Both the position numbers and the translations under genes were made by a program. 64,000 nucleotides of DNA from Haloarcula mannanilytica. Lineage in GTDB: Archaea; Halobacteriota; Halobacteria; Halobacteriales; Haloarculaceae. Of the stretch, positions 39,833-63,301 are shown one piece after another (within the stretch, counting starts at the first letter, position 1; each line of letters opens with the position of its first letter). The DNA lies in contig NZ_BIXZ01000006.1 of NCBI RefSeq assembly GCF_005406125.1, positions 124,001 through 188,000 on the forward strand. Direction: 5' to 3'. The notes under the pieces are model-generated. The model searched no databases. It worked only from the letters and a program-made list of their open reading frames with translations, and had not been told where the DNA came from.

Positions 39833-41050
39833 TCAGTTACTGCTAGAACGATCGGCCAGCATACTCATAAAGAAGGATCCGAATATCGTTTGAATTCCCA
39901 TGATGATCCCAGTCGAGGCGAGCAATGTCGCCATAGCGCTTGGTAGTGCTGGTTCACCAGCGATGAGCCACTGAATGAAGACACCGACGAGGTATATCAT
40001 CCCAATTCCGGTTATGACAACGCCAATTGAGGCGGCAGTCTCTAGCTGGAACCGATCTCTCACAGTCCCGATAAGTGCGCTTTTGGGTTCTCTTATCGGG
40101 TCTGCGGCAATTGCGCTGAACAGTGCTAAGGTCCAAATCTGATAGCCTACAATCGACAACAGTGATCCACCGACCATTGTTTGAAGCCCAAAATTCACGC
40201 CACCCGCTGTGATCCCACTGAGTGAGAGAGCCATAACAATCACACCGAGTGAGACCAGTGCCACAGCCGGATACGAAAACAGATAATCCGGTGCATTCAC
40301 TAGCATAAACCGAACGTGTCGCCAGCCGTCCCTGAAGCTATTTAACGTCTCCTCACCTTCCCGCTCGTGATAGATTATCGGAACTTCTGTAATCGTGAGA
40401 TCGTTCGCTCCAGCCTTCATTACCATCTCACTTGCAAACTCCATTCCGGTTGTGGTTAACTCTAAAGTCTCTAACGCATCCTTTGTAAATACCCGGAAAC
40501 CACTATGAGCATCGCTCACACCAGCGCCATAGAACGTGTTCAGGAACCGCGTCAGTAATGGATTCCCGACGTACTGGTGTAGTTTGGGCATCGAACCGTC
40601 CCTGATTTCCCCGTCTAATCGACTGCCCATACAGATGTCAGCATCACCGTTCTGGACAGGGGTAAGTAACCGCGGAAGCTGCTCAAAATCGTATGTCGTA
40701 TCCGCATCACCCATCGCAATGTACTCGCCACGGGCCTGATTGAATGCATAGCGATACGCGTAGCCGTATCCCTCTCGATCAGGTGTAACTACGATTGCTC
40801 CACGTTCACGAGCTAATTCCGGCGTCGAGTCTGTCGAACTGTCGCTTATAATGATCTCCGTCGGAATGCAAAGCTCGTCAATAGCTGTTTTGATCCGGTC
40901 GATACATTCTACAATCCCTTCTTCTTCGTTGAGCGTTGGCATCACAACGCTTAGAACCGGCTCAACATCTTTGTCCGGTGTGACAAGGAACTCGTCCTGT
41001 GTCACTGAGGAAGAGTCCTGTTGCTTTGCTTGATCTCTTTTAATCGTCAT
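39833..41050 (-). CDS. Family 2 glycosyltransferase, dolichol-phosphate type (AglJ-like)
   Basis: A 405-residue enzyme. The GT-A domain shows PTLNEEEGI (38-46), SDSSTDST (69-76), the metal-binding GDAD (114-117) and DAHSGFRVF, as in dolichol-phosphate sugar synthases. About four membrane helices follow (VALVSLGVIVMALSLSG and later ones). Haloferax AglJ, which charges dolichol phosphate with the first sugar of the N-glycan, has a similar build, so a start-of-glycan role is likely but not proven. It is the last gene of a five-gene operon with overlapping or near-touching genes. The start is set at MTIKRDQ. Confidence 0.85.
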   Translation of the reverse strand: MTIKRDQAKQQDSSSVTQDEFLVTPDKDVEPVLSVVMPTLNEEEGIVECIDRIKTAIDELCIPTEIIISDSSTDSTPELARERGAIVVTPDREGYGYAYRYAFNQARGEYIAMGDADTTYDFEQLPRLLTPVQNGDADICMGSRLDGEIRDGSMPKLHQYVGNPLLTRFLNTFYGAGVSDAHSGFRVFTKDALETLELTTTGMEFASEMVMKAGANDLTITEVPIIYHEREGEETLNSFRDGWRHVRFMLVNAPDYLFSYPAVALVSLGVIVMALSLSGITAGGVNFGLQTMVGGSLLSIVGYQIWTLALFSAIAADPIREPKSALIGTVRDRFQLETAASIGVVITGIGMIYLVGVFIQWLIAGEPALPSAMATLLASTGIIMGIQTIFGSFFMSMLADRSSSN

Positions 41051-41054
41051 CGAT

Positions 41055-42407
41055 CTATCGATACCCGAGGTCTTCGAGTCTGGCTTCCACGTCGTGATCC
41101 AGTTGTGGTTCGCCGATTGATTCTGCACTCGACCCGATACGGTTGATCCGCTGTTCCGCAATCCACTTGATGTCGGCAATCGATTCTTCTTCAGTCTGTG
41201 TCAGAGACGACACCTCACGATTCGACTGTATCTCGGTGACACGCGTCTCATCACGGAGCTGGTCTATCTCGTAGAGCCAGTCCTGTGAACGAACGCCCAC
41301 AATCGGATCCCCACGGACTTCGTGTTCGGCAATTACGTGTTCCCGAGGTTCTGACGCGAGTGACTGCCCTTCGTACTCACTGGGTACTGCTACTCCGGTC
41401 GCTTCGTGGAACAGTGGCGGGAGATCAAGGAGACTCACTAGTTCGCTCGACGCGCTTTCGGTTGCGGCGGGGCCGTTCACGACTACGAGCGGGACCTGCA
41501 CCAGTTCGTCGTACATCCGCTCCGGCTTTCCGTACTTCCCGTATTCACCGAACAACTCGCCGTGGTCGGACGTGAGTACCACGAGCGTGTTCTCGAACTT
41601 CCCAGCAGATTTGAGTGTCTGGACAAGCCGGTCAATCTGGCTGTCGACGTAGACGATAGCCGCTCTGTACAGCGCACGCATCTCCTCAATTTGTTCATCC
41701 GTGAGAGTTGTGGAGTCGTCAAGCAACATCGAGTACAGATCTGAGACCGTTTCCACGTCGATGTGCTCTACGCCGAACCGTTCCCTGTATTCCGCCGGCG
41801 GGTAACAGGGATGGTGAACGTCCATATAGTGAGCCCAACAAAAGAACGGACTGTCTGCGTCTTCGAGCCAGGCAACGGCATCATCCGTTATAACGTCGGC
41901 ACCGACGTATGGTCGCGCTTTCCCACTGACACGCCGGTACGCAGATTTCAGTAATCCGGTCAGATTGATCGCGTCGTCGATCCGCTCGAGTTTCGGGTTG
42001 TTTATTTCGATACCGCGGGGGAATATCTTCGTTGCGACCCCCATCATCGGGTTCTGGTAATCTTTGAACTCGTCGAACCCGACATCGTAATTAAAATGTG
42101 TCGACAGGAAGGGGTTACTGTGGAACCCGGCCGTTGTGAACCCGCGCTCACGGAGCTCCATTGCGACACGTGGCCTATCGTCGGTCAGTGGACCGAGTCC
42201 GTCATACGACAACGGCAGTGTCCCGGACAACATCCCCGGAAACGACGGCGTCGTCCCCGGGCCAGTTGCGAACGCCTGGTCGAAACTCACTCCAGCCCGT
42301 TCCAGTTTCGGACCCGAAGTGAGTGACGGCTGCATCTGTTTCCAAGTGTCGTAGCGGAGCGAGTCGTACGTGATGAGGAGGACGTTATCGACGGTGTCTG
42401 CTGTCAT
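41055..42407 (-). CDS. Alkaline phosphatase-superfamily hydrolase, sulfatase-like
   Basis: A 450-residue protein of the sulfatase/phosphatase fold: metal Asp15 in ITYDSLRYD, a nucleophile region TGPGTTPSFPGMLSG, and VLTSDHGELFGEYG with the metal-binding Asp and His. True sulfatases need C/S-x-P-x-R. Here the motif reads T-T-P-S-F (52-56), so Thr replaces the Cys or Ser and Phe the Arg. That suggests a phosphotransferase-like enzyme using Thr, as in LtaS or EptA, rather than a sulfatase. It lacks membrane helices. It ends LEDLGYR, like the paralogue at 46-47 kb. Its ATG overlaps the upstream stop by one base. Confidence 0.82.
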   Translation of the reverse strand: MTADTVDNVLLITYDSLRYDTWKQMQPSLTSGPKLERAGVSFDQAFATGPGTTPSFPGMLSGTLPLSYDGLGPLTDDRPRVAMELRERGFTTAGFHSNPFLSTHFNYDVGFDEFKDYQNPMMGVATKIFPRGIEINNPKLERIDDAINLTGLLKSAYRRVSGKARPYVGADVITDDAVAWLEDADSPFFCWAHYMDVHHPCYPPAEYRERFGVEHIDVETVSDLYSMLLDDSTTLTDEQIEEMRALYRAAIVYVDSQIDRLVQTLKSAGKFENTLVVLTSDHGELFGEYGKYGKPERMYDELVQVPLVVVNGPAATESASSELVSLLDLPPLFHEATGVAVPSEYEGQSLASEPREHVIAEHEVRGDPIVGVRSQDWLYEIDQLRDETRVTEIQSNREVSSLTQTEEESIADIKWIAEQRINRIGSSAESIGEPQLDHDVEARLEDLGYR

Positions 42408-43672
42408 TAGTTGGCCTCCATCTGGATTTGTTCCGTCCCCGAGAGCATCTGATAGTATTCGTCGATAGCGATGTCTTTGACAAAATTCGCCTCGAAAGCC
42501 TGTCTGGCGTTTTGCCCCTGTTTCTCAACGAGGTCGGGGTTCTGTTGCCAGCGTTCGAGAGCGGTTGCAGCGTCCTCTACGGCCCCCTGTTTGACGTTGA
42601 CGCCCGCGTCGAACCGCTCGATGAGTTGTGCCTCGTCGTCGTTCGGCTGGGAAATCACGAACACTGGCTGCCCGGCAGCCATCGCTGTGTAGAGCTTGCT
42701 TGATACGACGATCCCTTCGAACCCTTCTTTCACCGCTACAACCGAAACGTCGGCGGCAGTGAGGCTGTAAGGCAGGTCTTCCCAAGGCTGATACGGGAGG
42801 AAACGGACAGTATCGCCCCGGACGCCCAGTTCTTCCGCGAGATCGATTATTCGTTCTTTGTTATCTCCTTCACCGATGATGAGGAACTGAATATCAGCGT
42901 CGTCAAGTTCTGCAGCTGCTTTGACCAGCGTCTCCAGGTCGTGGAACGTCGCGATATTGCCTGAATAGAGGACCGTGAACGTATCCTCTAACCCGTGTTC
43001 TTTACTGAACCAGTTGTCTGACTTCGCCATTGGAGTGATAAACTCCTCGTCTTCCCAGTTGTGTATGATTTTGACCTTGTCAGTGTCGAACGATTGACCC
43101 CCTTTCGCACTGATACGCGATTTCATCACCGGACCGAGCGCAACGACGTGCTTTGCGTCTTGGAACGCTTTCCGATCGAACATTTCCCATAGCTGATGGA
43201 CGACACCACTTTTTTGCAGATAGCCCAGCTCAACCGGCTCGTCCGGATACAAGTCGTAGGCGATATAGGTGTACTCCCAGCCTCTAACGGTGCAGACGAA
43301 CCACATCGCGGCGGACATGAACGGCGGACAAGTGACGAAAATCAGTTCTCGCTCACGGTCGACTCGTTCAAAGAGTAACAGGGCCGTCATCCAGGTGGTA
43401 AACAGCGCCCAGTTCATGAGTCGACGCACTATCGACGACTGCCGGACCTGCGGGGCTCTGATACGACGGACCGGGACGCCTTCGTGCGTCGAATGGGTCG
43501 GCTGTCGTTCGTTCGCTCCGCTGTGGTAGTTCGGCTGACCGGTGTACACCGACAGATCCAGACCGCGTTCGTGGAGGCCCACGGCAAGGTCTGTCATCAG
43601 TTGGCCAGTCGACGCGGTGTCCGGATGAAAGTACTCAGTGACCAGCAGGTACTCTTTGTGATCCCCAGACAT
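42407..43672 (-). CDS. Family 4 glycosyltransferase (WbuB-like)
   Basis: A 421-residue GT-B enzyme. It begins LLVTEYFHPDTASTGQLMTDLAVGL, followed by VYTGQPNYH, as in WbuB-type N-acetylfucosaminyltransferases, and has the donor-site region IIHNWEDEEF, LYSGNIATFHDLETLV and GIVVSSKLYTAMAAGQPV, with the conserved acidic donor contact likely Glu in KEGFEGIV. A hydrophobic segment near residue 85-130 may tie it to the membrane. It transfers a sugar from a nucleotide donor; the sugar is not known. Start and stop overlap neighbours by one base on each side, showing tight coupling. Confidence 0.88.
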   Translation of the reverse strand: MSGDHKEYLLVTEYFHPDTASTGQLMTDLAVGLHERGLDLSVYTGQPNYHSGANERQPTHSTHEGVPVRRIRAPQVRQSSIVRRLMNWALFTTWMTALLLFERVDRERELIFVTCPPFMSAAMWFVCTVRGWEYTYIAYDLYPDEPVELGYLQKSGVVHQLWEMFDRKAFQDAKHVVALGPVMKSRISAKGGQSFDTDKVKIIHNWEDEEFITPMAKSDNWFSKEHGLEDTFTVLYSGNIATFHDLETLVKAAAELDDADIQFLIIGEGDNKERIIDLAEELGVRGDTVRFLPYQPWEDLPYSLTAADVSVVAVKEGFEGIVVSSKLYTAMAAGQPVFVISQPNDDEAQLIERFDAGVNVKQGAVEDAATALERWQQNPDLVEKQGQNARQAFEANFVKDIAIDEYYQMLSGTEQIQMEAN

Positions 43673-44691
43673 TATCTCTCGTGAAGGAGAGTCTCTAGGT
43701 TTTCCCGTACGTATTCCCGGTCTCGATTCGTTGTGTACCAGTCGAGAGTGTTCTTTAGTCCCGCTTCGAGCGTATACTCGGGCTCCCAGTCGAGGAGAGT
43801 TTCAGCACGCGTCGTGTCCGCAGCTCGGTGACGAACGCCGACGGGCTTGTCCGTCATGTACTCTCTTTCACTTGGTTCCCAGTCAAGGTGGGTGAAGATT
43901 GCATCAACGACCTCGTTGATCGAGACGTAGCGACTGATACCCGCATTGACCGGCGTCGCATCTGTAATGTTCTCGGCGGCTAGACGGAGTGCCCGCGTGA
44001 TGTCTTTCACGTACGTGAAATTACGTGTCTGTTCCCCGTCCCCCCAAATTCGGAACGGGTCTTGTCTGGCGTACGCTTTCGCCATGAGCGCGACTATCGC
44101 GTGTGTCTCGTTTTCGCGCGGGCCATACGCGGTGAATATTCGCACGATACTCGCATCAATATCGTACTGTTCGTGATATGCCTGTAAAGAACGTTCACCC
44201 ATGAGCTTGGCCCATCCATACACCTCGTCGGCGTACGCACCACCCCGTTCATCGAAACTCACCATGTCTTCCTGCAATCGCTTACGGTTCTGCTGGATAT
44301 CGGTGGGGTACGTGCATGCGCTGGAGGCAAATGTTATTCGCTCAACGCCGTTCTCCGCTGCGGACCCGTAGACAATATTGTCAAGGGCCATATTGGTCGC
44401 GCAGTTGGCCGGATAGTTCGAGATGTACCCTCGGCCACCGTGATCTGCAGCGAGATGGAATACAGTATCGATGTCCTGTGTGGCCCTATCGGTGAATTCC
44501 GCGTTTTTCAGGTTTCCTTCGACCACTTCAATCTGGTCTCTGACTGCGTCGAGATTCTCCCTTTCGCCACTCGAAAAGTCGTCTGCCACGCGCACGGTCG
44601 CCCCCGCCTTGACGAGGTCTTCGACCAAATGGCTCCCGATAAACGACGCACCGCCAGTGACCAGTACGCGTTCCTTACTCCAATCGATCAT
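43672..44691 (-). CDS. NAD-dependent sugar epimerase/dehydratase (GME-like)
   Basis: A 339-residue extended SDR enzyme. NAD motif VTGGASFIGSHL (11-22), catalytic Ser in FASSACTYP (121-129) and Tyr158/Lys162 in YGWAKLMGE. It is most like GDP-mannose 3,5-epimerase and UDP-hexose epimerases by its ASSACTYP and HGGRGYI elements. It prepares an activated sugar for the glycosyltransferases of the same operon. Its start overlaps the upstream epimerase stop by four bases (ATGA); the longer frame, 20 codons upstream, lies within that gene. Confidence 0.88.
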   Translation of the reverse strand: MIDWSKERVLVTGGASFIGSHLVEDLVKAGATVRVADDFSSGERENLDAVRDQIEVVEGNLKNAEFTDRATQDIDTVFHLAADHGGRGYISNYPANCATNMALDNIVYGSAAENGVERITFASSACTYPTDIQQNRKRLQEDMVSFDERGGAYADEVYGWAKLMGERSLQAYHEQYDIDASIVRIFTAYGPRENETHAIVALMAKAYARQDPFRIWGDGEQTRNFTYVKDITRALRLAAENITDATPVNAGISRYVSINEVVDAIFTHLDWEPSEREYMTDKPVGVRHRAADTTRAETLLDWEPEYTLEAGLKNTLDWYTTNRDREYVRENLETLLHER

Positions 44692-45707
44692 AGCTTGCCT
44701 CGGTTTGTCGCGATCTCCGGCTGGCGGGCTCCCAGTTCCACTTCTGCCCATCTGTATACCCGTTGCAGTCCATCTTCGAGTTGTACCGTGGGCTCCCAGC
44801 CGAGTTCTGATTCCATTTTTGTCATATCGCAGGCGTATTTGTCGGTCCCTGTCGGTTTCGAGCGGTCGTACTCCAGCGAGAGGTCCTTCCCGCTGATCTC
44901 GATAATCATTTCCGCGAGCTCTTTGATGGTCACAACTTCAGTAGAGTTCCCGAGATTAATCGGTTCCCCGTCGGCCTTTTTTGTAAACGTTTCAAGCATC
45001 CCGTCAACCAGATCAGTTACGTAAATGAATCCTCGCTGCTGTGAGCCGTCTCCGAAGAGCTCGATCTTATCGCCATCTGAGGCTTCGATAACTTTTCGGC
45101 AGAGTGACGGTATCACGTGACTGCTTTCGGGATCCAAGCTCTCTCGGGGACCATAGCAATTGAATATCCTAACACTGCTGGTCGCGATATCTGTATCAGT
45201 TTGGTATGCTTCACAGGCAATCTCCCCCAGTAGTTTTGCCCACCCATAGGTGCTATGTGGATCCGCGGGAATCGCCTGATCCTCGGAGAATAGATTCAGG
45301 TCGTCGTGCTGTTGCCTGTACACACAGGCACTTGAGGCAAACAGAAACCGATCAACATCGTTGATTCGTGCCGCCTCAAGCATAAACTGGTTCATCAGAA
45401 CACTGGGCGTAAGCCCCCCTACGTTCTCATTCTTGATGTAGTGGATGCCACCCACGCTCGCGGCCAGGTGGAACACGTAGTCGATCCCCTCCGTTGCTTC
45501 GATACATCCTTTTTGAGTCGTTAGATCGACGGGGAGTACTTCGATGCTATCACGAACTGACTCTAGCTTCGATAGATCTCCGCGTGAAAAATTATCAGCG
45601 ACCCGGACATCGGCACCAAGCGAAACCAATCGTTCGGTGAGGAAGGATCCGATAAACCCGGCTCCACCCGTCACGAGGATGTTACCATCTGATAGGTTGA
45701 CACACAT
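44688..45707 (-). CDS. NAD-dependent sugar epimerase/dehydratase
   Basis: A 339-residue extended SDR enzyme, first gene of the minus-strand operon. NAD motif VTGGAGFIGSFL (12-23), catalytic Ser in FASSACVY and Tyr154/Lys158 in YGWAKLLGE, with HLAASVGGIHYI as the substrate loop. It resembles the next gene in both length and key segments (ASSAC.Y, YGWAKL.GE), so the pair may have arisen by duplication. It probably acts on a UDP- or GDP-sugar. About 425 bases of A+T-rich DNA upstream must contain the operon promoter. Confidence 0.88.
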   Translation of the reverse strand: MCVNLSDGNILVTGGAGFIGSFLTERLVSLGADVRVADNFSRGDLSKLESVRDSIEVLPVDLTTQKGCIEATEGIDYVFHLAASVGGIHYIKNENVGGLTPSVLMNQFMLEAARINDVDRFLFASSACVYRQQHDDLNLFSEDQAIPADPHSTYGWAKLLGEIACEAYQTDTDIATSSVRIFNCYGPRESLDPESSHVIPSLCRKVIEASDGDKIELFGDGSQQRGFIYVTDLVDGMLETFTKKADGEPINLGNSTEVVTIKELAEMIIEISGKDLSLEYDRSKPTGTDKYACDMTKMESELGWEPTVQLEDGLQRVYRWAEVELGARQPEIATNRGKL

Positions 45708-46132
45708 GGCTTGAGTCAGTGGAAATTCTGTGAGTACATTGTTATGTGACGTTTACTACAACTATTGACCAGGCAAGATACTACTACAGTTGAATAGCGT
45801 TCAACTAACCCGATTTTTTAGAGCCAGAAATGACTACACTAATAGTACGTTGGCAAATAGATCTGCGTACTTATTTAAAAATAACAATACTGGGCATTAT
45901 AATTCGTCTTTAGCTGCTTCCACCACATGGTTCTATTCTTTCCATAGAGCGATCAATCTACCACTAAGCTACAACGGTCTGCTCGTGGATCTGAGTTAGC
46001 CACGTTCAATCTGGGCACAACGGGTGCATCGACAAGATGCGTCGCGTCTCGACCGTATCCCGTTAACTCCTGTTTTCTGGTGGTACTGAGGTGTACCATT
46101 AGTGTCGGCTGATGTGGATTCACTCCGAAAAA
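45708..46132. other. A+T-rich intergenic region, operon promoter
   Basis: Markedly A+T-rich compared with genes on either side. It should hold the promoter of the five-gene operon running left. Short open frames are Asn- and Ser-rich and do not look real. Confidence 0.45.
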
Positions 46133-47101
46133 TCAGCGGTACCCAAGCATTTCGAGTTGCTCTTCGACTTGCTGTTCAAGGTTATCGTCGACAGTATCCG
46201 GTTCCAGACGAATCGTGTACTCGTTGCGACCCTGACCGGATGTTTCAACCCATGGAACTCTCCGAAGCGGTGGGATGGGTAGCATCGGGTGTGCGTAAAC
46301 ACCGAACTCGCCAAACGCTTCTCCGTGGTCGGAGGTAATAACAATCTTCTCTGCGTCGATGTCTTCGATCAACGTTTCGACGCTCTCTAATCCGAACGCA
46401 AGTTCCTCCAAATAGCTATCCCAAACTCGTTCTCTGGCGGTCCCGTTTTTTAATGCACTCCACGGGTCTTCTTCTATCTCGTTCAGTGGTCGGTTTTCCG
46501 CGAGGGCTCGTGCACCGTAGGGGATGTGCGGTGGGAGATAGTGTACGATCATCTGATCGGCAGCTGTCTCCCGCCAGGTCGCTATCGCACGGTCTGTCAC
46601 GGCATACGGCATTACGGTACCGCTGAACGGATTCGTTGGACCGTATCGCCACACTTCGTCGAATTCGCAAAAATCGCTCGGTTCAACAGTATCCCAGCGA
46701 GTAAGCCGTTCCAAGAACTCGGGCCAGTTCGGTTCAGCCTCGTGACCTAGCCCCCATCTGCTTGTCGGATTAGCAGTTACCAGTGCCGTTTTCCTGATCT
46801 GGTCGATGTTCTCGTTGGTAAACGTGTGCGGAACCCACTCACGCGTTGCACTCCCCCGGGACCAAATCGACGTTCCGGAGTCAAGAAACGAATACTCCGA
46901 GGCGATCTGATCCATTGCGTCAGCTCTGCATGTATCTAAAATAACGAGAACGTCCCACTCTCGGTCGAATATATCAACACCGTGGGGGATCCACGACGAT
47001 GAGACTTTCAACAACGCGTCCGCTAGCTGTGTTACCTGTGACCCCCCTGGAATACGATTGCGAACGGCATTCTGAACGAATCGGGAGCTAGGCATTACCA
47101 C
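46133..47101 (-). CDS. Alkaline phosphatase-superfamily hydrolase, sulfatase-like (short)
   Basis: A 322-residue protein with the same fold marks as the 450-aa enzyme of the operon to its left: metal Asp56 in VLVILDTCRADAMD, a nucleophile region WSRGSATREWVPHTF where Ser84 or Thr86 would act, and IVITSDHGEAFGEFGVYAHP with the second metal site. It ends LEMLGYR, like that paralogue (LEDLGYR). There is no C-x-P-x-R sulfatase signature, so a phosphodiesterase or phosphotransferase role is as likely. Acting on glycans or lipid-linked sugars would suit the setting. Confidence 0.78.
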   Translation of the reverse strand: MVMPSSRFVQNAVRNRIPGGSQVTQLADALLKVSSSWIPHGVDIFDREWDVLVILDTCRADAMDQIASEYSFLDSGTSIWSRGSATREWVPHTFTNENIDQIRKTALVTANPTSRWGLGHEAEPNWPEFLERLTRWDTVEPSDFCEFDEVWRYGPTNPFSGTVMPYAVTDRAIATWRETAADQMIVHYLPPHIPYGARALAENRPLNEIEEDPWSALKNGTARERVWDSYLEELAFGLESVETLIEDIDAEKIVITSDHGEAFGEFGVYAHPMLPIPPLRRVPWVETSGQGRNEYTIRLEPDTVDDNLEQQVEEQLEMLGYR

Positions 47102-47177
47102 TTCATTTATATTCTTTGTTCAAAATGTTTTTCACTAGATTGGTTGCCGCACCTCAGCCTTCTAAAACGAGTTGCGG

Positions 47178-53820: not shown

Positions 53821-53983
53821 TCACACCGTTTCTTATCCGAACAAATTTAGTTAGAAGCTCATTATTTATCCGAAATGTCGGTCTGATAATTACGGTCGGT
53901 AAGATTAGATCTGTGATACATCGTAGATCTGGAGTTTGGATACACCTTACTATAACACATATCTAGCATACTGCGGACGTAGG

Positions 53984-54955: not shown

Positions 54956-55026
54956 CACTCCCGCCTGTTCGAAGAGTTGGGGTTTTACAAACGACGGACA
55001 GTAATTTGTCGGTTGGTGTATAGTGC

Positions 55027-55038
55027 AAATATTTAATT
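55027..55038 (+). promoter_or_regulatory. TATA candidate for the acyltransferase gene
   Basis: AAATATTTAATT lies 40-51 bases before the ATG, in an A+T-rich gap. It is a plausible haloarchaeal TATA element. Confidence 0.4.
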
Positions 55039-55077
55039 GGAAAACAACCGTATCAACAATCAGTATTGTGAGATAAT

Positions 55078-55659
55078 ATGAAACAGAGTCCGTTTAACCT
55101 ATTGGCCGAGAAGGGGCTGGTCACCTTTGCCGTCATCTGTAAATCGTATCTCGCTAGTGAACTATACAAACGGTATCTCAACAGCCGTCGCAACGTTTCA
55201 ATCGATAACTCAGCCGAAATCGACCTGGCAACTGACTTCGGAACGTCGGGCAATATCACCATCCGCGAAAACTGTCGGATCCGGAAATATACCGTCATCT
55301 CTCCGTCCGGAGGGGAAATCGAAATCGGAGCCAACTCCTTGGTCAACGCCTTTGGGTCCCTCCTTGGTCATGGGTCAATCCACATTGGTCAGGACGTATT
55401 AATCGGTCCACATACGACCATTGTCGCTGCGAATCACACGTTTAGCGATCAGACTGTCCCAATAGTTCAACAGGAGGTCACAAAGGAGGGTATTACCATT
55501 CACGACGACGTATGGATAGGCGCTAATTGCACGGTGTTAGATGGCGTTACTATCGGCGAGGGTGCTGTTGTCGCAGCCGGAAGTGTCGTCACTGAATCTG
55601 TGCCCGAATCTACCGTCGTTGCCGGCACTCCTGCGGAGCAGATCGATACACGAAACTAG
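55078..55659 (+). CDS. Hexapeptide-repeat (LbH) acyltransferase
   Basis: A 193-residue protein with left-handed beta-helix repeats, visible as (I/V)-G-x-x-x-x units: ITIRENCRI, IEIGANSLV, IHIGQDVLIGPHTTI, ITIHDDVWIGANCTV and VTIGEGAVVAAGSVV, ending AGTPAEQI. AANHTF carries the catalytic-type His. It fits a sugar O- or N-acetyltransferase such as WcaF/NodL. It would decorate the glycan made in this island. The N-terminal 45 residues are helical and basic, perhaps touching the membrane. Confidence 0.88.
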   Translation: MKQSPFNLLAEKGLVTFAVICKSYLASELYKRYLNSRRNVSIDNSAEIDLATDFGTSGNITIRENCRIRKYTVISPSGGEIEIGANSLVNAFGSLLGHGSIHIGQDVLIGPHTTIVAANHTFSDQTVPIVQQEVTKEGITIHDDVWIGANCTVLDGVTIGEGAVVAAGSVVTESVPESTVVAGTPAEQIDTRN

Positions 55660-55707
55660 TTCAATCAGCATTCATTCGGCGGTTTAGACGGCCTATACTA
55701 AGACAGT

Positions 55708-55721
55708 AATATATAAATACT
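55708..55721 (+). promoter_or_regulatory. TATA element of the 658-aa membrane protein gene
   Basis: TAATATATAAATAC lies 31-44 bases before the ATG, as expected for a leaderless haloarchaeal transcript. Confidence 0.5.
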
Positions 55722-55751
55722 CATCATCGGAGACTTTGAGTTGTAAAATTG

Positions 55752-57728
55752 ATGTCAACTGCTACGTGGCAAGACGTGACGCGCCTGCTTCTTCCGACAT
55801 CTCTAATTATCGCATTATTTGCCTCCCTTGTGGCGTTTCAGATCCTGGGCCCAGTGGCCGGTGTCAAAAGCGGGTACGTGTTCCTAGGCTTGCTATTTGC
55901 AATCGTAATCTATCGGTACTCACAAACAGAGGGAGAGGAAGTAGGCCACAGTAGCTATACAGTACAGAGCTCGGAGTTAGGAAAAGTCGTTTTCGGCGGC
56001 GTACTGCTCGCTATAGCAGCGGTGGCACAGGCAGACGCATTGCTCCCGTTTGGAGCGCCGACCATGCGGACTGTGAGCCTTCTTGTCGTTCTGCCCATCG
56101 GGTACATATTACTCGCAGTACAAATCCGACAGCGAGCACCAACAGGGTGGCTCATCAGCCAGCTCGTCGCGTTATTTGCACTCGATCCACTAACGAAATA
56201 CCAATCAACTAACTTTTATTTCGGGCGGGGCGACATTCCAAAACACGTTTACTACACTGATCTCATCACGTCAAGTGGAACGTGGCGGTCGCTTCCGGAA
56301 ACCACGATGTATCAGTACTTCCCGGGACACCAAACACTTCTCGGAGCAGTGAGCTTTCTTACCGGGTTCTCGTCGTACGATTCACTCGTTATCACCGGGA
56401 TACTCACGTATCTCGTCGTCATTTGCGCCGCGTATTTACTTGCCCGCCTCTTTTTTCCGGATCGAATACTCTCAATCTGTATCCTGTTCGGTGTTACAGT
56501 ACTTGGCCCAATCCATCGATACAGCGTCTACTTTTACCCACAAGCGGTCGCAGTTGCGCTAGGGCTGATCGTTATTCTGGGTGCCTATCGATACAGTACG
56601 TTCGAACCGACGAGCTATCTCGTGCACACGGTACTTACCATACCCATCGTCGTTGCGCTTTGGTTCACTCATCATTTCACTGTTGTCCTGTTTGCTCCGA
56701 TACTGGCCGGACTGCTCACGGTTCCTATTCTCGCTAACCGCGGTTTCGGATTCGAAGGTGTCATCCGCCCCCAACTACTGCCAATCGTTGCGTGGGTCGG
56801 CGGCAGTGTGGCGTACTGGTTAGTCGGCAGTGTGTTTATCAGTACGCTGATTTCTGCCCTGACCAGAGTAGTCAGTTTCATGCAAGTGACTGGCGACGCG
56901 AGCGGCGGTGATCCAGTTCAAACGCTTGGACGTTCGCTCCCTGAACCATCCATTACTGAGGCCGTAATTAGTCTATTCAGCGTTAGTGGGATCTACAATG
57001 TCTTTCTCGTCTGTTTGCTCTCTCTCGGGGTGTTGGTGCTCTTTCGAAACCACAACTTGTACCGCCGCGCCGCTGGAATCGTCACTGTCGGCGTGCTCGG
57101 ATCAATTTTCATGATCAGAATACCGCTTGAGATACACGGGATCCAGCGGATACAACTCCCACTTAGCCTCTTTGTCGCGTTTATCATTGGATCGAGCCTT
57201 TATTGGCTCGTCTCTAACCCGAATACGTCTCTCAAGCGAATCGCTCCGGGGCTTCTCGTGGTCGCGGTACTGGCGACTGCCGGCCCTGCTGTGGCAGCTG
57301 ATGATCTTTACGGCCTCCACTCGGGGCCAGATCTCTGGGAGAAACAATCACTGCCCGAAACCCAAAAAGAATTCAGTGCCGCTGAAATGGAGAGTTTCCA
57401 GCAATCAGCGACGTATCTCAAAGAGCAAGAGACCTCCGTCGCTACCGACTGGAATTCGGCTATCGGTCTCAGTAGATACGGTGCAGGCTCTGGTTCGTTC
57501 GTCGTAGCGGATGATCGCATCAGAACAGAGCAAGATCTGCTCCTGTACCGACAGCGGTGGACGACCCACAGTGTGCGGTACGTTCCATCGCGGATTGATT
57601 TCAGGACGCTCCTCGTTTCGGATGACTGGATGAGAGGGTCTGTCCGTAGTGAAAACAAGGTGTACACGACCGGTGAAATAGGAATGCTCGCAGACAGGGA
57701 GAACGCTACGTATCTTGATCGCCAGTAA
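55752..57728 (+). CDS. Large multi-helix membrane protein, possible GT-C enzyme
   Basis: A 658-residue protein with about 12-14 membrane helices and a C-terminal outside domain of some 150 residues (from DDLYGLHSG). The first outer loop has NFYFGRGDIPKHVYYTDL and then a loop with YQYFPGHQTLLGAV, which resembles the position of the acidic catalytic loop in GT-C glycosyltransferases and O-antigen or oligosaccharide polymerases. No standard signature is complete, so this is tentative. The start is the ATG after a TTG in the same frame. Its end overlaps the opposing glycosyltransferase by 23 bases. Confidence 0.7.
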   Translation: MSTATWQDVTRLLLPTSLIIALFASLVAFQILGPVAGVKSGYVFLGLLFAIVIYRYSQTEGEEVGHSSYTVQSSELGKVVFGGVLLAIAAVAQADALLPFGAPTMRTVSLLVVLPIGYILLAVQIRQRAPTGWLISQLVALFALDPLTKYQSTNFYFGRGDIPKHVYYTDLITSSGTWRSLPETTMYQYFPGHQTLLGAVSFLTGFSSYDSLVITGILTYLVVICAAYLLARLFFPDRILSICILFGVTVLGPIHRYSVYFYPQAVAVALGLIVILGAYRYSTFEPTSYLVHTVLTIPIVVALWFTHHFTVVLFAPILAGLLTVPILANRGFGFEGVIRPQLLPIVAWVGGSVAYWLVGSVFISTLISALTRVVSFMQVTGDASGGDPVQTLGRSLPEPSITEAVISLFSVSGIYNVFLVCLLSLGVLVLFRNHNLYRRAAGIVTVGVLGSIFMIRIPLEIHGIQRIQLPLSLFVAFIIGSSLYWLVSNPNTSLKRIAPGLLVVAVLATAGPAVAADDLYGLHSGPDLWEKQSLPETQKEFSAAEMESFQQSATYLKEQETSVATDWNSAIGLSRYGAGSGSFVVADDRIRTEQDLLLYRQRWTTHSVRYVPSRIDFRTLLVSDDWMRGSVRSENKVYTTGEIGMLADRENATYLDRQ

Positions 57729-58884
57729 TCAATTCGAATACTCTGTCGTATTGATCCATTAGCGAGTCCCAGGAGTGATTTGACGCGATCTCTGGCCCTG
57801 CAGCCGCGAGTCGGTGACGGAGTTCGTTCGAAGAGCGAAGCTGTTCGATGCCGCGAACAAATCCGTGAGCGTCCTCATAGATAAGCACATCTTTGCCGTC
57901 TTCAACAGTGAGTCCCTGGGCACCCACAGGAGTCGTAATTGTGGGTAATCCGGCCGCCAGATAATCTAACATCTTTAATTTAGTCCCGGAACCACTGAAC
58001 AGCGGACATAGTGCGATGTCCGCTAACTGCAAGGCACCAGGGAGTTCATCAACATAGCCGGGTGTATATACATTGCTTGCCGATGTTGAAGGGGGATTCC
58101 GTCCGATGAGGAGAAAGGTTACGTCGTCGAATTCGGGGGCAATCTCTTCGCTAATTACCGTTGCCGCGCGTCTGTTCGGTGCATAGTCGTATGAGCCGAG
58201 GAACACACACGTGAACACATTCTCGTCTATACCACACTCTCGTGCCGCTTGTGCCGGATTGCCCCCATCGCGTATCCACTGGAAGTCACACCCGTTCGGG
58301 ATGACGAATGTTTCGGTTCCGGGTGTCTCCTCGAACCGGGCTTGATCGTCTTTGGATTGGAACACCGTTATGTCGGCTGCACTAATCGCTTGCTTTTCAA
58401 AGGAGTAGAAGTTCTCTACTGTTCGGCGTCGAAGGAGATCGGGAACACCTCTCTCCTGAAGGTAGCCGTCCAGTATCGTGTGTTCGGCGTTGTGCTTGTT
58501 CAGGAGCATCACTGCATCGTGTTCCGCCGAGAGTTGCACTGCTGCATCCGTTACTTGCGGGAACTCACAGACGATAACGTCGAATGAGATTCCCAACGAA
58601 TTAACTGTCCTGACAAGACTCCGAGTGAGCAGTTTTCGAAGCGGGTGTCGCTCGCTAAATAAAAACAGTCCAGTCCAAAGTTCGTTCCAGATTGGTTGCC
58701 GGGTGAACAGTGGACTGGTCAGATCGATCCATTCGATATCATTCGATGGCTGTTCACTGCTGGGCGGTGCAGCTACCCATAAATCACCAAACTCAGTCAT
58801 TTTCTGGGCAGTGTTCCATAGACGCACTTCGGCTCCGTTCTGTGGCGGGTACATTGCTGTCCGAGTGAGCTGTAAAATATTCAT
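57706..58884 (-). CDS. Family 4 (GT-B) glycosyltransferase
   Basis: A 392-residue enzyme with a typical GT-B double fold. PPQNGAEVRLWNTAQKM near the start is the acceptor-side loop, NKHNAEHTIL follows, and the donor side has FLGSYDYAPNRRA, LLIGRNPP and SGSGTKLKMLDYLAAGLPTITT, matching the E-x7-E region of retaining transferases in modified form (the first Glu is replaced by Ser in LFSGSGTK). Similar to glycosyltransferases of bacterial exopolysaccharide loci. It is encoded alone on this strand. Confidence 0.85.
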   Translation of the reverse strand: MNILQLTRTAMYPPQNGAEVRLWNTAQKMTEFGDLWVAAPPSSEQPSNDIEWIDLTSPLFTRQPIWNELWTGLFLFSERHPLRKLLTRSLVRTVNSLGISFDVIVCEFPQVTDAAVQLSAEHDAVMLLNKHNAEHTILDGYLQERGVPDLLRRRTVENFYSFEKQAISAADITVFQSKDDQARFEETPGTETFVIPNGCDFQWIRDGGNPAQAARECGIDENVFTCVFLGSYDYAPNRRAATVISEEIAPEFDDVTFLLIGRNPPSTSASNVYTPGYVDELPGALQLADIALCPLFSGSGTKLKMLDYLAAGLPTITTPVGAQGLTVEDGKDVLIYEDAHGFVRGIEQLRSSNELRHRLAAAGPEIASNHSWDSLMDQYDRVFELITGDQDT

Positions 58885-59174
58885 TTGTCAAGAAGGGCGT
58901 TCGATAATTCTCAAGCGTATTATCCAAATATCAGGTATCACACCTGTTAGTTATGCTGTCTTAATTTCTCGGATATCTCTTGGGCTGTGATCTCTATCGC
59001 ATTACTGAGAGTAGTGACCGCATTATTCTACCATTTTCGGCTCATATATTTAAATGAGAGTCGAGAATAGCAAAGAGAAAGACGACATGTGCTGCACGGA
59101 TGTCGATCCGACGAGGGCATTAATATTGGACGAATGAATGACTGGCATGTGTAACATGATTACGCTGTAATATA

Positions 59175-60638
59175 ATGGCTAAGTCAGTTGATGCGTTCAG
59201 TGACCGAATCCGACAGTTCGTCCACGATCTGAGCTTTTACTCTATTGCACATCTCGTCCCTGCGCTACTCTCTCTTGGTGCGCTGATGTTATTTACTCGA
59301 GTGTTTTCTCCGGAGATGTTCGGCCGATATTCGCTCGCGTTAGCGGTTGCGGGAATCACCAGTACCCTTCTGTACGGTTGGCTTGACTACTCGGTTCTTC
59401 GGTATGCACCGCAGCTAGACGAAGAAATTGTTCTGAGAAATATCTACTCGCTGTATGTTGGAATCTCTGTGTTGTTGTTATTTCTCGCAACGGTCGGTTA
59501 CCTGTTAGGGGGTTACTGGCTCGGACCGTATACGATATTTTTCTTCCCTGCGCTGGCGCTGGCTATCGCTCGGGGCGGAATACAAGTATTACTGGCTTTC
59601 TTTCGTTCTGTCTTAAATTCCCCAAAAGTCACCCTGTTTCGGGTGATGCGGGCCGTGATTTCCGTGACGGTTTCGGTTGTCTTAGCACTCATCGTGCTAG
59701 AACATATTGTCGGCTGGATCTTGGGTGCGACTATCGGCATTGTTGTGACCTGTGTGTATATTTTTGTGTCTTCGGAGACTGTTCGGGGAGTTCCATTATT
59801 CGACCGAGAGATGATCAACCGGCTCTTCCGATACGGGGTCCCGATGGTCGGATTTATTATCGGGGATGCGTTTCTCGTTCAAGCTGATCGAGTGTTGCTC
59901 GAACTCTTGGGAAGTAGTATCGCGGTCGGTATCTACTCCGCGAACTACATGCTGGTCGACCGGGGTCTCCGACTGGCGTATACGCCCATTATCCAGGCGA
60001 TTACGCCGATAATTATCGATTCCTGGGACGAGGGGAACGAACAAGAAATCGGGACGATGATACACAACTTTTCCAGGTATTTCATTCTCTTGGGCATCCC
60101 TGCGCTGGTTCTCGTTGCTGTCCTCAGTAAAACAGTGAGCACGCTGCTGGTCGGTGAAGAGTTTACGAGCGGATTCGTGATCATCCCTGTCGTCGCCATT
60201 GGACTGTTTTTCTGGTCACTCGCGAATCTTATACAGGTCATCTTCGAAATCAAGGAGGAAACTGCCATGCTGTCGTATGGTATTGTTGGTGTTATCGCGG
60301 TGAATCTCGTACTTAATGTCCCGCTGATAACGACGCTGGGCTATTTTGGTGCCGCCGTGGCTACAACCGTCAGCTACACGCTGTACCTGCTGTTCGTCAT
60401 GAGACTGTCATCTCGGTATCTTTCGTGGGAGTTTCCCGTTGTTTGTCTTCGAAACGCAGTCGTTGGGGCGATACTGATGTTGCTCCCGACTGTGATACTC
60501 TACGTGTTCGACAGCTACACGCTGGTCAGCTCACTCAGTACTGCGGCCATCGGCACATTGTTCTACCTCGTGAGTATCTATCTGCTTGATGAGATCGGAC
60601 AGGCTGAAATTGAGCAGATTCGGCAGTTTCTGGAGTGA
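59175..60638 (+). CDS. Oligosaccharide flippase (Wzx/MurJ-type), copy 2
   Basis: A 487-residue MOP-superfamily protein with 12-14 helices, a paralogue of the one at 49.9 kb. Both share the FTRVFSPEMFGRYSLA / FTRLFSPSAFGRYSIA loop, QADRVLLELLGSS / QADRFLIEFLRGS and GVYxAGx-like central helices with ANYMLVDRGLRLAY / SNYSLADRGLRLAM. Two flippases in one island suggest two separate lipid-linked glycans. The 290-bp upstream gap is A+T-rich with ATATATTTAAATG near 59045. Confidence 0.9.
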   Translation: MAKSVDAFSDRIRQFVHDLSFYSIAHLVPALLSLGALMLFTRVFSPEMFGRYSLALAVAGITSTLLYGWLDYSVLRYAPQLDEEIVLRNIYSLYVGISVLLLFLATVGYLLGGYWLGPYTIFFFPALALAIARGGIQVLLAFFRSVLNSPKVTLFRVMRAVISVTVSVVLALIVLEHIVGWILGATIGIVVTCVYIFVSSETVRGVPLFDREMINRLFRYGVPMVGFIIGDAFLVQADRVLLELLGSSIAVGIYSANYMLVDRGLRLAYTPIIQAITPIIIDSWDEGNEQEIGTMIHNFSRYFILLGIPALVLVAVLSKTVSTLLVGEEFTSGFVIIPVVAIGLFFWSLANLIQVIFEIKEETAMLSYGIVGVIAVNLVLNVPLITTLGYFGAAVATTVSYTLYLLFVMRLSSRYLSWEFPVVCLRNAVVGAILMLLPTVILYVFDSYTLVSSLSTAAIGTLFYLVSIYLLDEIGQAEIEQIRQFLE

Positions 60639-60744
60639 CATGGAAGACGATGCCCTAGCGCTATCGGAACAGTTCACATCGAGTAAACGACCGCATTACT
60701 TGCGGATCAGAGCTTCGCTTAACTAGTAGGATAGTTGTTATTAA

Positions 60745-62022
60745 ATGACTTTGCGTCAATCTACGGATATGCCCGAGATAACGGTTATCGGTGCGGGTGT
60801 CGCGGGTTGTTCACTGAGCTATCTCCTTGATCAGGAGGGGTTCGATGTCACCATCGTAGAAAAAGACGCTGTTGGTGGTCTGCTCCGAGAGATTGAGTTC
60901 GAGACAGGGTACCATTGTGATTCCGCTCCGCATCTGTTGTTCTTCGACGAAGAGGAAGAGGCGATTGTCGGGGACCTCTTCTCAGAATTCACGCAGTTAG
61001 AGCCACACGAGTTCTATGCTGCGACGTATCCACGTGGGAAACTCTCCGATCCCCACCACTACCCAGTGAGTAAACAAAACATCGACAAATGGGACGATGC
61101 AGACGCCATTCGTGAGGAATTAGCTGAAGCACCCGGAAAAACTGATGCCGAGTATTTCGAGGAGTATATGAAAAATCAGGTCGGGGAGACATTGTATAAT
61201 AGATATAACAAAGATTACACCGAGAAGCACTGGGGTATCGACCCCAAACGTATCACGGGTGACTGGTTCGATTTCAAGATCAGTTTCCCGGATGAGGAAC
61301 AGGAGTTCTTCGGTGATGGAGCGTACTATCCCGACGACAAATACACCGATATCCTCCAGTCGATGATCGCTGACTGTGATGTCGTTTTCGATGGGGTCAC
61401 TGGGTTGGAGACCGACGGTGATCGGATCTCCGCTATCGAAACGGAGAGTGGCGACCGGATCAACAGCGATCTTTTTGTCAGTACGATTGACCCGAGTATT
61501 CTGGTCGATACGTCGGAGTCACTCAACTATCGAAGTATGGTAATACTCGGAGCGCATATCGAGGCTTCCGAACGACTGTTTCCCGACCACGTCGACTGGG
61601 GGTATTTCCCGAACCATTACGACTTTACCCGTATCACGGACTACAAATTCATCCCACAATCGACACCTGATGGAGAATACATTCTCACGACGGAATTCCC
61701 CAGTTTCATTGGGGATGAAGTCTGGTCCAATTCCGAAGAGTGGTACAGTGAGTACCTGATGGATTTCCTTGACGAGCAGGGAATTAATGCGACGTTACTC
61801 GATGCGGAGGTCAGGCGTGCACCGCGAGCGTATCCCCTCCCGGTGACGGAAGAAATCGATACGTTCGAACGAATCAATGACCGGCTTAGCGCATACGAGA
61901 ATATGTTCAATCTCGGACGAGTGAGCACCTACGAGTATATCTGGATCAAGGACATCGTTCAGCAGGCTTACGAAACTCGGGACGATATCCTGGAATACGT
62001 TCAACAGTCTACAGCCGACTAA
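60745..62022 (+). CDS. UDP-galactopyranose mutase-like flavoprotein
   Basis: A 425-residue FAD enzyme. It has the dinucleotide motif VIGAGVAGCSLSYLL and VEKDAVGGL, a substrate-side HYPVSKQNIDKW and YNRYNKDYTEKHWGIDP, where the Y-T-x-K-x-W-G element is diagnostic for UDP-galactopyranose mutase and relatives. Such enzymes convert UDP-galactopyranose to the furanose used in some archaeal and bacterial surface glycans. A protoporphyrinogen oxidase-like amine oxidase is the alternative, but the glycan setting argues for the mutase. The ATG at MTLRQST is used; MPEITV eight codons later also works. Confidence 0.78.
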   Translation: MTLRQSTDMPEITVIGAGVAGCSLSYLLDQEGFDVTIVEKDAVGGLLREIEFETGYHCDSAPHLLFFDEEEEAIVGDLFSEFTQLEPHEFYAATYPRGKLSDPHHYPVSKQNIDKWDDADAIREELAEAPGKTDAEYFEEYMKNQVGETLYNRYNKDYTEKHWGIDPKRITGDWFDFKISFPDEEQEFFGDGAYYPDDKYTDILQSMIADCDVVFDGVTGLETDGDRISAIETESGDRINSDLFVSTIDPSILVDTSESLNYRSMVILGAHIEASERLFPDHVDWGYFPNHYDFTRITDYKFIPQSTPDGEYILTTEFPSFIGDEVWSNSEEWYSEYLMDFLDEQGINATLLDAEVRRAPRAYPLPVTEEIDTFERINDRLSAYENMFNLGRVSTYEYIWIKDIVQQAYETRDDILEYVQQSTAD

Positions 62023-62272
62023 AATCCGCCACACTGTCTCTCCGTCACAACGAAGATGAAATACGATGAAACAGCCACATGGACTCAAATTTCCTCAAAT
62101 ACCACGATGAGCGCAACAATATCCTCTATTCCTGATGTTTTATACAGCAAATAATTCCAGGTTCGGTTCTTTGTGTTTTGTATAAAGAATATGCGGCCTA
62201 ACGGTAATCGATATGTGATAATTCAATTATAATTAAACGTGTTACCTTACTGATTACCTTGTAGTCCCAAAC
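62023..62272. other. A+T-rich intergenic region
   Basis: Contains no believable frame. ATTCAATTATAATTAAA near 62221-62236 is a TATA-like tract for the downstream epimerase gene. Confidence 0.35.
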
Positions 62273-63301
62273 ATGACTGAGATGGACTCCGAAACGACCG
62301 AAAAAATATTTGTCACGGGCATAGCTGGCTTCCTTGGAAGCCACCTCGCTGATGAATTCCTTGAACAGGGGTACGAGGTCGCTGGGAACGATAACTTCGT
62401 GGGTGGATACGAAACCAATATTCCAGCGGAAGCTGAGTTCCATGAGGTCGACTGCAAAGACGTTTCAGGAATGAAGTCCGCGATGGAAGACGCCGATATC
62501 GTCTATCACACTGCAGCACTGGCATACGAGGGGTTGAGTGTTTTCGCTCCGAGTCGCATCAATCAGAGTATCTATCAGGCAACAACCGCGACGCTCGCTG
62601 CTGCTGCAGATGTCGGCATCGACCGGTTCGTCTACTGTTCCAGTATGTCCCGGTACGGGGAAAACGAAATGCCGTTTACCGAAGACATGGAGCCGCAACC
62701 ACAGGATCCGTATGCCGTGAGCAAGGTGGCCGCAGAGGAGATGGTGGAATTGATGGCTGATATCTACGGATTCGAGTACGTTATCGCCGTCCCACACAAC
62801 ATCATTGGGCCCCGACAGCGATACGACGATCCGTTCCGAAACGTCGCTGCGATTTTCATAAACCGGATGCTCCAGGGCAAACAACCGATCATCTACGGAG
62901 ATGGCGAACAGAAACGCTGCTTCACCTTCATTCAGGACGACGTTCGCCCGCTCCAGAAACTCGCTCATTACGACAACGTTACTGGTGAAGTCATCAATAT
63001 TGGTCCTGACGACGAGTTCATCACTATCAACCATCTCGCTGAAACGATTGCCGATATTCTCGATTTCGATCTCGATCCGATCTACAAACCGGATCGCCCA
63101 CAGGAAGTAAAACTGGCGAACTGCTCGGCGGATAAGGCCCGGCGTATGATCGATTACGAGGCTCAGTACACGCTTCGTGATGGCTTGCAAGAGATGGCGG
63201 ATTGGATCGAAGAGCGCGGCGCAAAGGAATTCGAGTACCACCTTGAATGTGAAATCGTCAACGATCAGACCCCTGATACATGGACGAACGAACTCATCTG
63301 A
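62273..63301 (+). CDS. NAD-dependent sugar-nucleotide epimerase/dehydratase
   Basis: A 342-residue extended SDR enzyme. NAD motif VTGIAGFLGSHL (14-25), catalytic Ser in YCSSMSRYG (121-129), and Tyr147/Lys151 in DPYAVSKVAAEE. It resembles UDP-glucose 4-epimerase or UDP-glucuronate-type enzymes (PHNIIGPRQRYDD, GDGEQKRCFTFIQD). It differs from the two epimerases at 43.7-45.7 kb in the YAVSK motif and so probably handles another sugar. It follows the mutase-like gene by about 250 bases. Confidence 0.88.
   Translation: MTEMDSETTEKIFVTGIAGFLGSHLADEFLEQGYEVAGNDNFVGGYETNIPAEAEFHEVDCKDVSGMKSAMEDADIVYHTAALAYEGLSVFAPSRINQSIYQATTATLAAAADVGIDRFVYCSSMSRYGENEMPFTEDMEPQPQDPYAVSKVAAEEMVELMADIYGFEYVIAVPHNIIGPRQRYDDPFRNVAAIFINRMLQGKQPIIYGDGEQKRCFTFIQDDVRPLQKLAHYDNVTGEVINIGPDDEFITINHLAETIADILDFDLDPIYKPDRPQEVKLANCSADKARRMIDYEAQYTLRDGLQEMADWIEERGAKEFEYHLECEIVNDQTPDTWTNELI

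Follow-up and report, generated by a model that had tools for sequence, protein, structure and literature searches.

A probable exchangeable surface-polysaccharide locus on a pHH400-like megaplasmid of Haloarcula mannanilytica

We analyzed 64,000 nucleotides of Haloarcula mannanilytica DNA (C6:124001-188000, hereafter the window; the genome comprises 4.2 Mb in 33 contigs, and contig C6 is 229.5 kb long), the right part of which carries a cluster of predicted glycan genes. This cluster probably represents one of several alleles at an exchangeable surface-polysaccharide locus, carried on a Haloarcula megaplasmid like pHH400. The locus has defined borders, alleles that differ between genomes, a kit of shared gene families, and mosaic relationships to loci elsewhere. 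We read the cassette as a replacement flexible genomic island for production of an extracellular or surface polysaccharide, and we infer the polymer, its surface location and the catalytic steps. The cassette, 24-30 kb long, lies between fixed sugar-catabolism genes, with a fructose phosphotransferase system (PTS) to its left and genes for glycerate-kinase-like, DUF362 and LUD proteins to its right; its content varies between strains and species, like that of bacterial O-antigen/K loci. This kind of locus is known. The PTS-adjacent Haloarcula locus seems undescribed, and our literature search, which reached few subscription papers, found no description of it.

The borders were placed by comparison with the same site in strain ATCC 33800. 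Homology ends at the stop codon of the PTS IIB gene (window position 39192) and restarts, in the H. mannanilytica genome, 46 bp before the glycerate-kinase-like gene, ~5.2 kb past the last window position; these two points enclose a unit of 30 kb. By this homology break, the cassette occupies 39193..64000 of the window and goes on to ~69154 in window numbering (C6:163193-193154), and its low-G+C part runs from 39193 to ~64440. Among 11 aligned alleles, the first left match to ATCC 33800 ends exactly at the IIB stop in seven, the window included, and extends beyond it in four (genomes G007, G025, G030 and G036). On the right, homology sets in 27-137 bp ahead of the glycerate-kinase-like gene in all but one of the 11; the exception, G025, has no right-side match to the ATCC 33800 site in this alignment. 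The left anchor is a fructose PTS operon (35166..39192, plus strand), recognized from PtsI, Pfam matches, gene order and the names used in pHH400 and pNG700. It encodes IIC (35166-36311), IIA (36323-36799), HPr (within 36726-37073), PtsI (37076-38761) and IIB (38758-39192; PTS_IIB Pfam match), all on the plus strand. The order IIC, IIA, PtsI is kept in 10 examined loci, and the HPr open reading frame (ORF) was matched in nine of these. On the right, homology resumes at the DUF4147/MOFRL glycerate-kinase-like gene (L006:7201-8535, window numbering 69201-70535), which forms the right frame together with DUF362 and LUD genes. The left window flank matches pHH400 of H. hispanica and pNG700 of H. 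marismortui with 83-85% DNA identity over 6.7 kb, so contig C6 is probably part of a megaplasmid of this type.

Full-length PtsI of at least 77% identity (77-93%) was found in 21 other Haloarcula genomes, and the DNA downstream of IIB was taken for 20 of them (G032 was left out). Nineteen are readable; uncounted are G022 and G035, which have PtsI fragments only, and G021, with 1 kb only. Gene calls were made by a greedy longest-ORF script and are uncurated. A glycan cluster is present at the site in 11 of the 19, in three further allele groups. These 11 have 6-9 kit ORFs, and the remaining eight have 0-2; in the 12 kb that follow in the 11 cassette genomes, one ORF out of 101 matches the kit. 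In G014 and G025 no glycerate-kinase ORF was called, and a fixed 25-kb limit was used for the kit count (G014 has a 408-bp DNA match to the start of the glycerate-kinase-like gene). Ten cassettes, that of the window included, are complete, those of G025 and G037 being partial; all ten encode a GT-C-type membrane protein, DUF1616, GT2/GT4 and a sulfatase/phosphatase-fold protein, counts that are partly circular. DUF1616 occurs in 11 of 12 cassette genomes and is absent from the partial G025.

We assigned allele groups from cassette ORF sharing and GT-C comparisons: A1 (G007, G009, G010, G014, G030, G033), A2 (G019, which carries pNG700, G036 and the partial G025), B (H. hispanica, strain CBA1115) and C (the window). 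G037 stops at a contig edge and was left untyped. Anchors matched at 60% or more at the protein level lie ~25-27 kb apart in eight other genomes. The 25 ORFs of the window cassette have no match of at least 60% in seven of the eight other cassettes, and one (GH88) in the eighth, from group B. A1 ORFs have such matches in the two A2 cassettes compared in 47-71% of cases (50-56% in reverse). At most one of 18 group B ORFs is matched at this level in any other group, and 26-43% of A-group ORFs match B at 40% or more. Thus different gene clusters (A1, A2, B, C and a scar allele) lie at the same position between the same anchors. The initial annotation of the window had named uniform composition and conserved synteny of the island across the genus as the contrary outcome; we found conserved flanks and an interior that is not conserved.

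The scar allele comes from a conspecific pair. ATCC 33800 has been placed in H. marismortui, and the strains are of the same species by average nucleotide identity (97.8-98.3%; PMC12189638). The distance between IIB and DUF4147 is ~25 kb in pNG700 vs 1.6 kb in pHsi388 of ATCC 33800, with collinear flanks (99.2% identity over 41 kb and 98.4% over 43.5 kb). The 1.6-kb gap is matched by nine A-group alleles, and nothing in it is matched by the window or H. hispanica. The scar (L119 33510-35135) keeps end fragments of an A-group cassette. Its first piece is 66-79% identical to A-group cassette ends, with G030 and G007 best; pNG700 matches at 69% and lacks the right-end pieces present in G007, G030, G033 and G036. 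The lost allele thus appears to have been A-group-like and not obviously that of pNG700.

An A+T-richer surface-glycan island had been proposed from the letters of the window, and this description is borne out, with ~52% G+C inside vs ~61% around it; its surface-glycan character is upheld as an interpretation of the predicted gene products. In 1-kb steps, G+C is 0.55-0.68 up to 39 kb and 0.48-0.56 over the remainder of the window, and past its end it is 0.53-0.64 in 2-kb steps; the change is from ~0.62 to ~0.52 at 39 kb, returning to near 0.61 just right of the window end. Over a 125.5-kb stretch, mean ORF G+C is 0.531 in the island (n=21) vs 0.617 elsewhere (n=88; Mann-Whitney p=7e-11). The lowest-G+C 25-kb segment starts at 39001 (0.520), and 100 segments that do not overlap the island span 0.598-0.625. 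Longer A+T-rich intergenic gaps, also proposed, are real (mean 183 bp and 0.434 G+C vs 140 bp and 0.531 in the left 39 kb), and the difference is modest. Delimiting the island by composition only was rejected: genes for a GMC oxidoreductase and a 293-aa protein family lie near UDP-galactopyranose mutase (UGM)-like and GT-C genes in relatives despite host-like G+C.

The sharp composition step could mean that the low-G+C block entered recently from a foreign source as one island, added by mobile-element insertion, and is not an allele of a shared locus. A miniature inverted-repeat transposable element (MITE)-like repeat lies near the left border, and an IS5-like element lies inside the pNG700 allele, as this explanation might suggest. 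However, relatives have other glycan cassettes at this site, several with comparably low G+C, and borders are shared between alleles. There is no tRNA in the window and no match to integrase or transposase Pfam families among 20 proteins scanned. We therefore consider simple insertion very improbable. The palindromic repeat (87 nt, 39463..39549, with a second copy at 18421-18507) has terminal inverted repeats and diverged copies (75-82% matches) on contigs C1, C5 and C7. The island had been said to begin right after it: the repeat is real, and it sits inside the left border gap rather than at the border. It is not shared with other alleles, and a search of the other downstream stretches gave no copy at the border; as the cause of insertion it was rejected as unsupported. 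A search of the window against Rfam gave nothing at gathering scores.

Several observations weigh against reading the site as an exchangeable polysaccharide locus. No cassette is present at the site in eight of the 19 readable genomes. Kit hidden Markov models (HMMs) were seeded from the window, and that of a 600-aa membrane protein from tested alleles, which makes the kit counts partly circular. Low G+C is not general (within A1, 0.526 in G030 vs 0.642 in G010). The A1 cluster as a whole (G033, G030, G007, G014, G009, G010; L069-L076, L079-L080, L086-L087) spans 0.58-0.83 G+C at third codon positions with GT-C proteins 81-97% identical to that of G007, and this spread within one cluster implies that low G+C does not by itself mark DNA as a recent foreign arrival. 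No flippase was recognized in alleles A1 and A2. For the one strain pair compared, single-nucleotide polymorphisms (SNPs) rise mildly beside the right border, to 2.7% over the first kb; higher peaks, of up to 7%, lie further off, and the left side shows no rise. A SNP peak at the borders that could speak for homologous exchange is not clearly seen. The flanking-protein tree is weakly resolved and needs only five allele changes (minimum four), so alleles seem mostly to follow descent and frequent exchange is not supported by it. As proof of exchange the tree was rejected, its resolution being too weak.

Most genes at the left of the cassette are on the minus strand. The first encodes a GT2 with hydrophobic segments, resembling AglJ and dolichyl-phosphate-hexose transferases (39833..41179; below model cut-offs; 55% to Halogeometricum limi locus L054), with a true start that is probably internal. 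There follow a sulfatase-family hydrolase (41055..42407; PF00884, E 1e-41; 55% to Halolamina locus L067), a GT4 glycosyltransferase (42407..43672; 67% to L067), two SDR epimerases/dehydratases (43672..44751 and 44688..45707; 82% and 77% to L067), a weakly assigned sulfatase/alkaline-phosphatase-fold-like protein (46133..47101; homologues in other cassette alleles), a GH26-like protein without evident signal peptide by eye (47178..48329; 50% to the L054 copy) and a DUF1616 membrane protein (48624..49610; PF07760, E 1e-74), all on the minus strand. The remainder is on the plus strand unless noted: flippase 1 (MOP/Wzx-like; 49934..51391; Pfam match and tree), a YdjM-family membrane protein (51366..51974, minus; Pfam match), a NUDIX hydrolase (52124..52666; 59% to L067), a GH26 glycoside hydrolase with an N-terminal RR motif and lipobox by eye (52681..53820, minus; PF02156, E 3e-9), a GT2 glycosyltransferase (53936..54955; 49% to L054), a hexapeptide-repeat acyltransferase (55078..55659; 60% to L054), the GT-C-type protein (55752..57728; model comparison and hhalign), a GT4 glycosyltransferase (57706..58884, minus; Pfam match), flippase 2 (59175..60638), a UGM-like flavoprotein (60745..62022; PF03275, E 1e-12), an adjoining SDR epimerase/dehydratase (62273..63301; 82-87% homologues in G028, G030 and G023) and a 293-aa protein with eight hydrophobic segments (63556..64000, running to 64437 outside the window). 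Past the window end, the rest of the latter is joined by a Gluconate_2-dh3-like protein whose score falls slightly short of the cut-off, a GMC oxidoreductase, an ORF of 122 aa and a GH88 protein.

The glycosyltransferases, epimerases, UGM-like protein, acyltransferase and flippases that had been called from the translations are all present (two GT2, two GT4, three SDRs, one UGM-like flavoprotein, one hexapeptide acyltransferase and two flippases), and the island also encodes sulfatase, GH26, DUF1616, YdjM and NUDIX proteins. Two phosphatase-fold proteins had been called as well. The sulfatase is clear; the second (46133-47101) has a sub-threshold Sulfatase match only (E 0.18), with a 36%-identical relative that scores PF00884 at 2.1e-8, and a PDB sequence search with it gave nothing useful. 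The genes for the 293-aa, Gluconate_2-dh3-like and GMC proteins (L006 1556-4912, window numbering 63556-66912) recur near UGM-like/GT-C genes in G030 and G035, and possibly form an exported sugar-oxidising unit.

In the proposed pathway, the SDRs (and the UGM-like enzyme) would make nucleotide sugars, the GT2/GT4 enzymes would assemble an oligosaccharide on a dolichol-type carrier, and a flippase would turn it outward, where the GT-C protein may extend, join or polymerise it. Sulfatase/phosphatase-fold and acyltransferase proteins could decorate or trim the polymer, and the glycanase that each allele brings, GH26 in the window and heparinase-II/III-like or beta-helix enzymes in other alleles, could cut it for release or turnover. 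A glycanase or lyase was identified in C and, for each of A1, A2 and B, in a single representative: heparinase II/III-like proteins occur in A1 (G007 tested) and B, and alginate-lyase-family and beta-helix or GH28/GH55-related proteins are annotated in the pNG700, pHH400 and CBA1115 records.

The 659-aa membrane protein at 55752..57728 belongs to no family in Pfam or NCBIfam, and no Pfam family, STT3/PF02516 included, was matched even at E 5. An AlphaFold model from 19 aligned rows is of moderate quality (mean pLDDT 62), and Foldseek with this model lists PglB and ArnT first (E 0.003-0.06). On the Foldseek list, VIA-align 2 places STT3, AglB, AftA, ALG12, PglB and ArnT at the top with Z from 12.3 (root-mean-square deviation 5.7 over 391 residues) to ~8, values that helical proteins may reach without kinship, as the program warns. 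The model comparison suggests a GT-C-type protein, with an acidic residue in an early loop as in the GT-C superfamily (STT3/AglB, AftA, ALG12, ArnT); unlike that superfamily, it has no sequence family match and carries a D-x3-H-V motif. In an alignment covering 19 of 21 loci (window included; L031 and L032 left out), this motif is present in all 19, and a WWDYG-type motif, which we take to be that of the STT3/AglB oligosaccharyltransferases, is present in none. By hhalign, the 600-aa membrane protein encoded in groups A1, A2 and B (an alignment of 10 rows) matches the window protein with 97.3% probability and the D-x3-H motif aligned; four control pairings against flippases and DUF1616 gave 0.1-5.9%. 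In a sample of 391 genomes from the class, the D-x3-H family occurs in 39, and in 19 of 86 genera, at E 1e-10 or better. Polymerase families had no match among the cassette proteins scanned, and the GT-C-type protein is present. A second GT-C relative lies ~60 kb from the first in G028 (G028:C6:144371-146140; L033, L037), perhaps marking a second glycan cluster.

The modelled GT-C fold, closest to the oligosaccharyltransferase STT3/AglB chains, would also suit a protein-glycosylation locus in which this protein transfers oligosaccharide to S-layer or secreted proteins independently of AglB. The Agl15-dependent, AglB-independent N-glycan of Haloferax volcanii is described as having an unidentified transferase (PMC8241124). 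However, the lack of any Pfam match, STT3 included, and of the WWDYG-type motif argues against this role, and glycanases seem better suited to a polymer, so that we regard it as improbable. An AglB N-glycosylation cluster was rejected, as both STT3 matches of the genome are on another contig (C1).

If the locus is an exchangeable polysaccharide cassette, it might go further and act as a fixed-anchor, serotype-like switch, an archaeal counterpart of K/O-antigen loci. Each allele would bring its own D-x3-H GT-C protein, as the missing polymerase or ligase for surface polysaccharides of haloarchaea, and a matched glycanase, and replacement or loss within a species would alter the virus-exposed surface. 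We offer this as a tentative idea that is somewhat doubtful as it stands.

The two flippases are paralogous, as had been proposed: both are MOP-family proteins above the Pfam cut-off, and they are 41% identical to each other. From them came the suggestion of two glycans, one on the left half and one, possibly furanose-containing, on the right; spelled out, this would mean two pathways side by side, one per flippase, with a left product that is sulfated or epimerised. Low flippase identity, the two GT2 and two GT4 genes, and the UGM-like and SDR genes at the right end are consistent with it, and two flippases are unusual: among 17 contexts (16 GT-C-bearing or GT-C-matched loci and UGM locus G023), one flippase was found in nine, none in eight and two in none, in spans of 7-40 kb each that second flippases further away could escape. 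Against this division, a locus in G028 away from the PTS site combines a single flippase (55% to flippase 1 and 42% to flippase 2) with UGM-like, SDR, DUF1616, GT-C and two GH26 genes, in DNA of host-like G+C (0.60-0.68). Identities to the window are UGM 81%, SDR 87%, acyltransferase 55%, GT2 50%, GT-C 45%, and GH26 49% and 42%. In locus L054 of Halogeometricum limi, too, a lone flippase gene accompanies two GH26 genes and those for GT2, acyltransferase and GT-C proteins. There is also only a single GT-C protein in the window.

Nearest relatives were compared in the same 17 contexts, with matches below 55% query coverage removed. The window sulfatase, first GT4, first two SDRs and NUDIX protein are nearest to a Halolamina plasmid (55-82%); the first GT2, both GH26 proteins, both flippases, the second GT2, the acyltransferase and the GT-C protein are nearest to Halogeometricum limi (34-60%); and the UGM-like protein, last SDR and GMC oxidoreductase are nearest to G023/G030/G035 (67-81%; G028 is outside the set). 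By these matches, the window allele is a mosaic in which three blocks each have their own nearest relatives. Genes close to those of L054 extend over 39833-57728 and enclose the Halolamina-like ones, and the blocks interleave over the left/right divide. Two glycans, one per half, are thus unsupported and in our view unlikely. The assignment of flippase 2 to a furanose half fares no better, as in G028 a relative of flippase 1 sits with the UGM-like gene. Flippases 1 and 2 and those of G028 and L054 form one clade (100/100), with flippase 1 and that of G028 grouped at 92/99, so the second copy appears to be an old paralogue of the same specialised type. Mosaic assembly, with this copy as a by-product, is a simpler reading than a second pathway for a furanose. 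PF01943 has five matches in the whole genome; two more flippase genes (G000:C6:27661-28443 and C8:1597-2424, the latter in DNA of ~42% G+C) maybe lie in further glycan islands.

The UGM-like protein scores above cut-off for PF03275 and NAD_binding_8 (FAD Rossmann motif and UGM domain), and its best PDB matches are UGMs (E 6e-13). Homologues at 68-81% occur in four Haloarcula genomes; in a search of plasmids, the best 20 of 106 matches are bacterial UGMs below 25% identity. The NCBIfam UGM score is 64 vs a cut-off of 304. The arginine at the position of R305 of Deinococcus UGM is kept, and that at R198 is absent in all five aligned homologues (F, with K adjacent); both are presumably conserved active-site residues. 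Because one of the two expected arginines is absent, a furanose product is uncertain. The GH26 protein at 52681-53820 has a PF02156 match above cut-off and mannanase PDB matches at E 0.02. Both Glu positions, which we take to be catalytic, are conserved in six aligned proteins. Two GH26-like proteins had been called, and this holds: that at 47178-48329 has no Pfam match and its PDB sequence search gave nothing useful, and it aligns to the first with both Glu positions kept. Like its two closest homologues, this protein has no evident signal peptide; the three have in common a C-terminal tail with the motif D/E-W-H-I/V-P-L-N-E-N-F-A.

Replacement flexible genomic islands include O-chain, exopolysaccharide (EPS) and flagellar glycosylation clusters (Lopez-Perez et al. 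2014, PMC4033161). The Haloarcula locus resembles them in having different surface clusters of like function at one place, with borders that show no clear hallmark of illegitimate recombination; it differs in its place on an archaeal megaplasmid, its frame of fructose PTS and glycerate-kinase-like genes, and boundary substitution peaks that are not clearly seen. Haloquadratum walsbyi GI1 is also a variable haloarchaeal surface island, and has been compared to capsular switching. Unlike GI1, which is described as carrying surface-layer, surface-glycoprotein and envelope genes (PMC4535781), the Haloarcula cassette is centred on polysaccharide assembly and cleavage. Glycosyltransferases, a polysaccharide biosynthesis protein and an arylsulfatase-like protein are shared with the acidic-EPS cluster of Haloarcula hispanica (HAH_1661-1667/AepG), in which the acidic EPS is lost when HAH_1662 or HAH_1667 is deleted (PMC5467301, PMC9943897). 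We take that cluster to be a different locus, judged by gene numbers and content only. Our literature search found no gene-deletion experiment on the PTS-adjacent locus. Archaeal exopolysaccharide pathways are poorly mapped, and that of H. hispanica is called unknown in the AepG paper (PMC9943897). Fixed borders, natural allelic variants and a near-empty conspecific allele provide a ready-made strain comparison, and the D-x3-H GT-C family is a candidate to fill the missing step of extracellular transfer or polymerisation. The locus also allows one to ask whether cassette replacement diversifies surface sugars in archaea as it does in bacteria.

Outside the cassette, genes for an RdfA-like protein (rod-determining factor) and an archaea-specific SMC-related protein adjoin the PTS operon (32241-35014), by homology to pHH400/pNG700. 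Further left, an inverted repeat of 82 nt (20717-20798 and 28163-28244) has arms that are 83% complementary and 7.4 kb apart.

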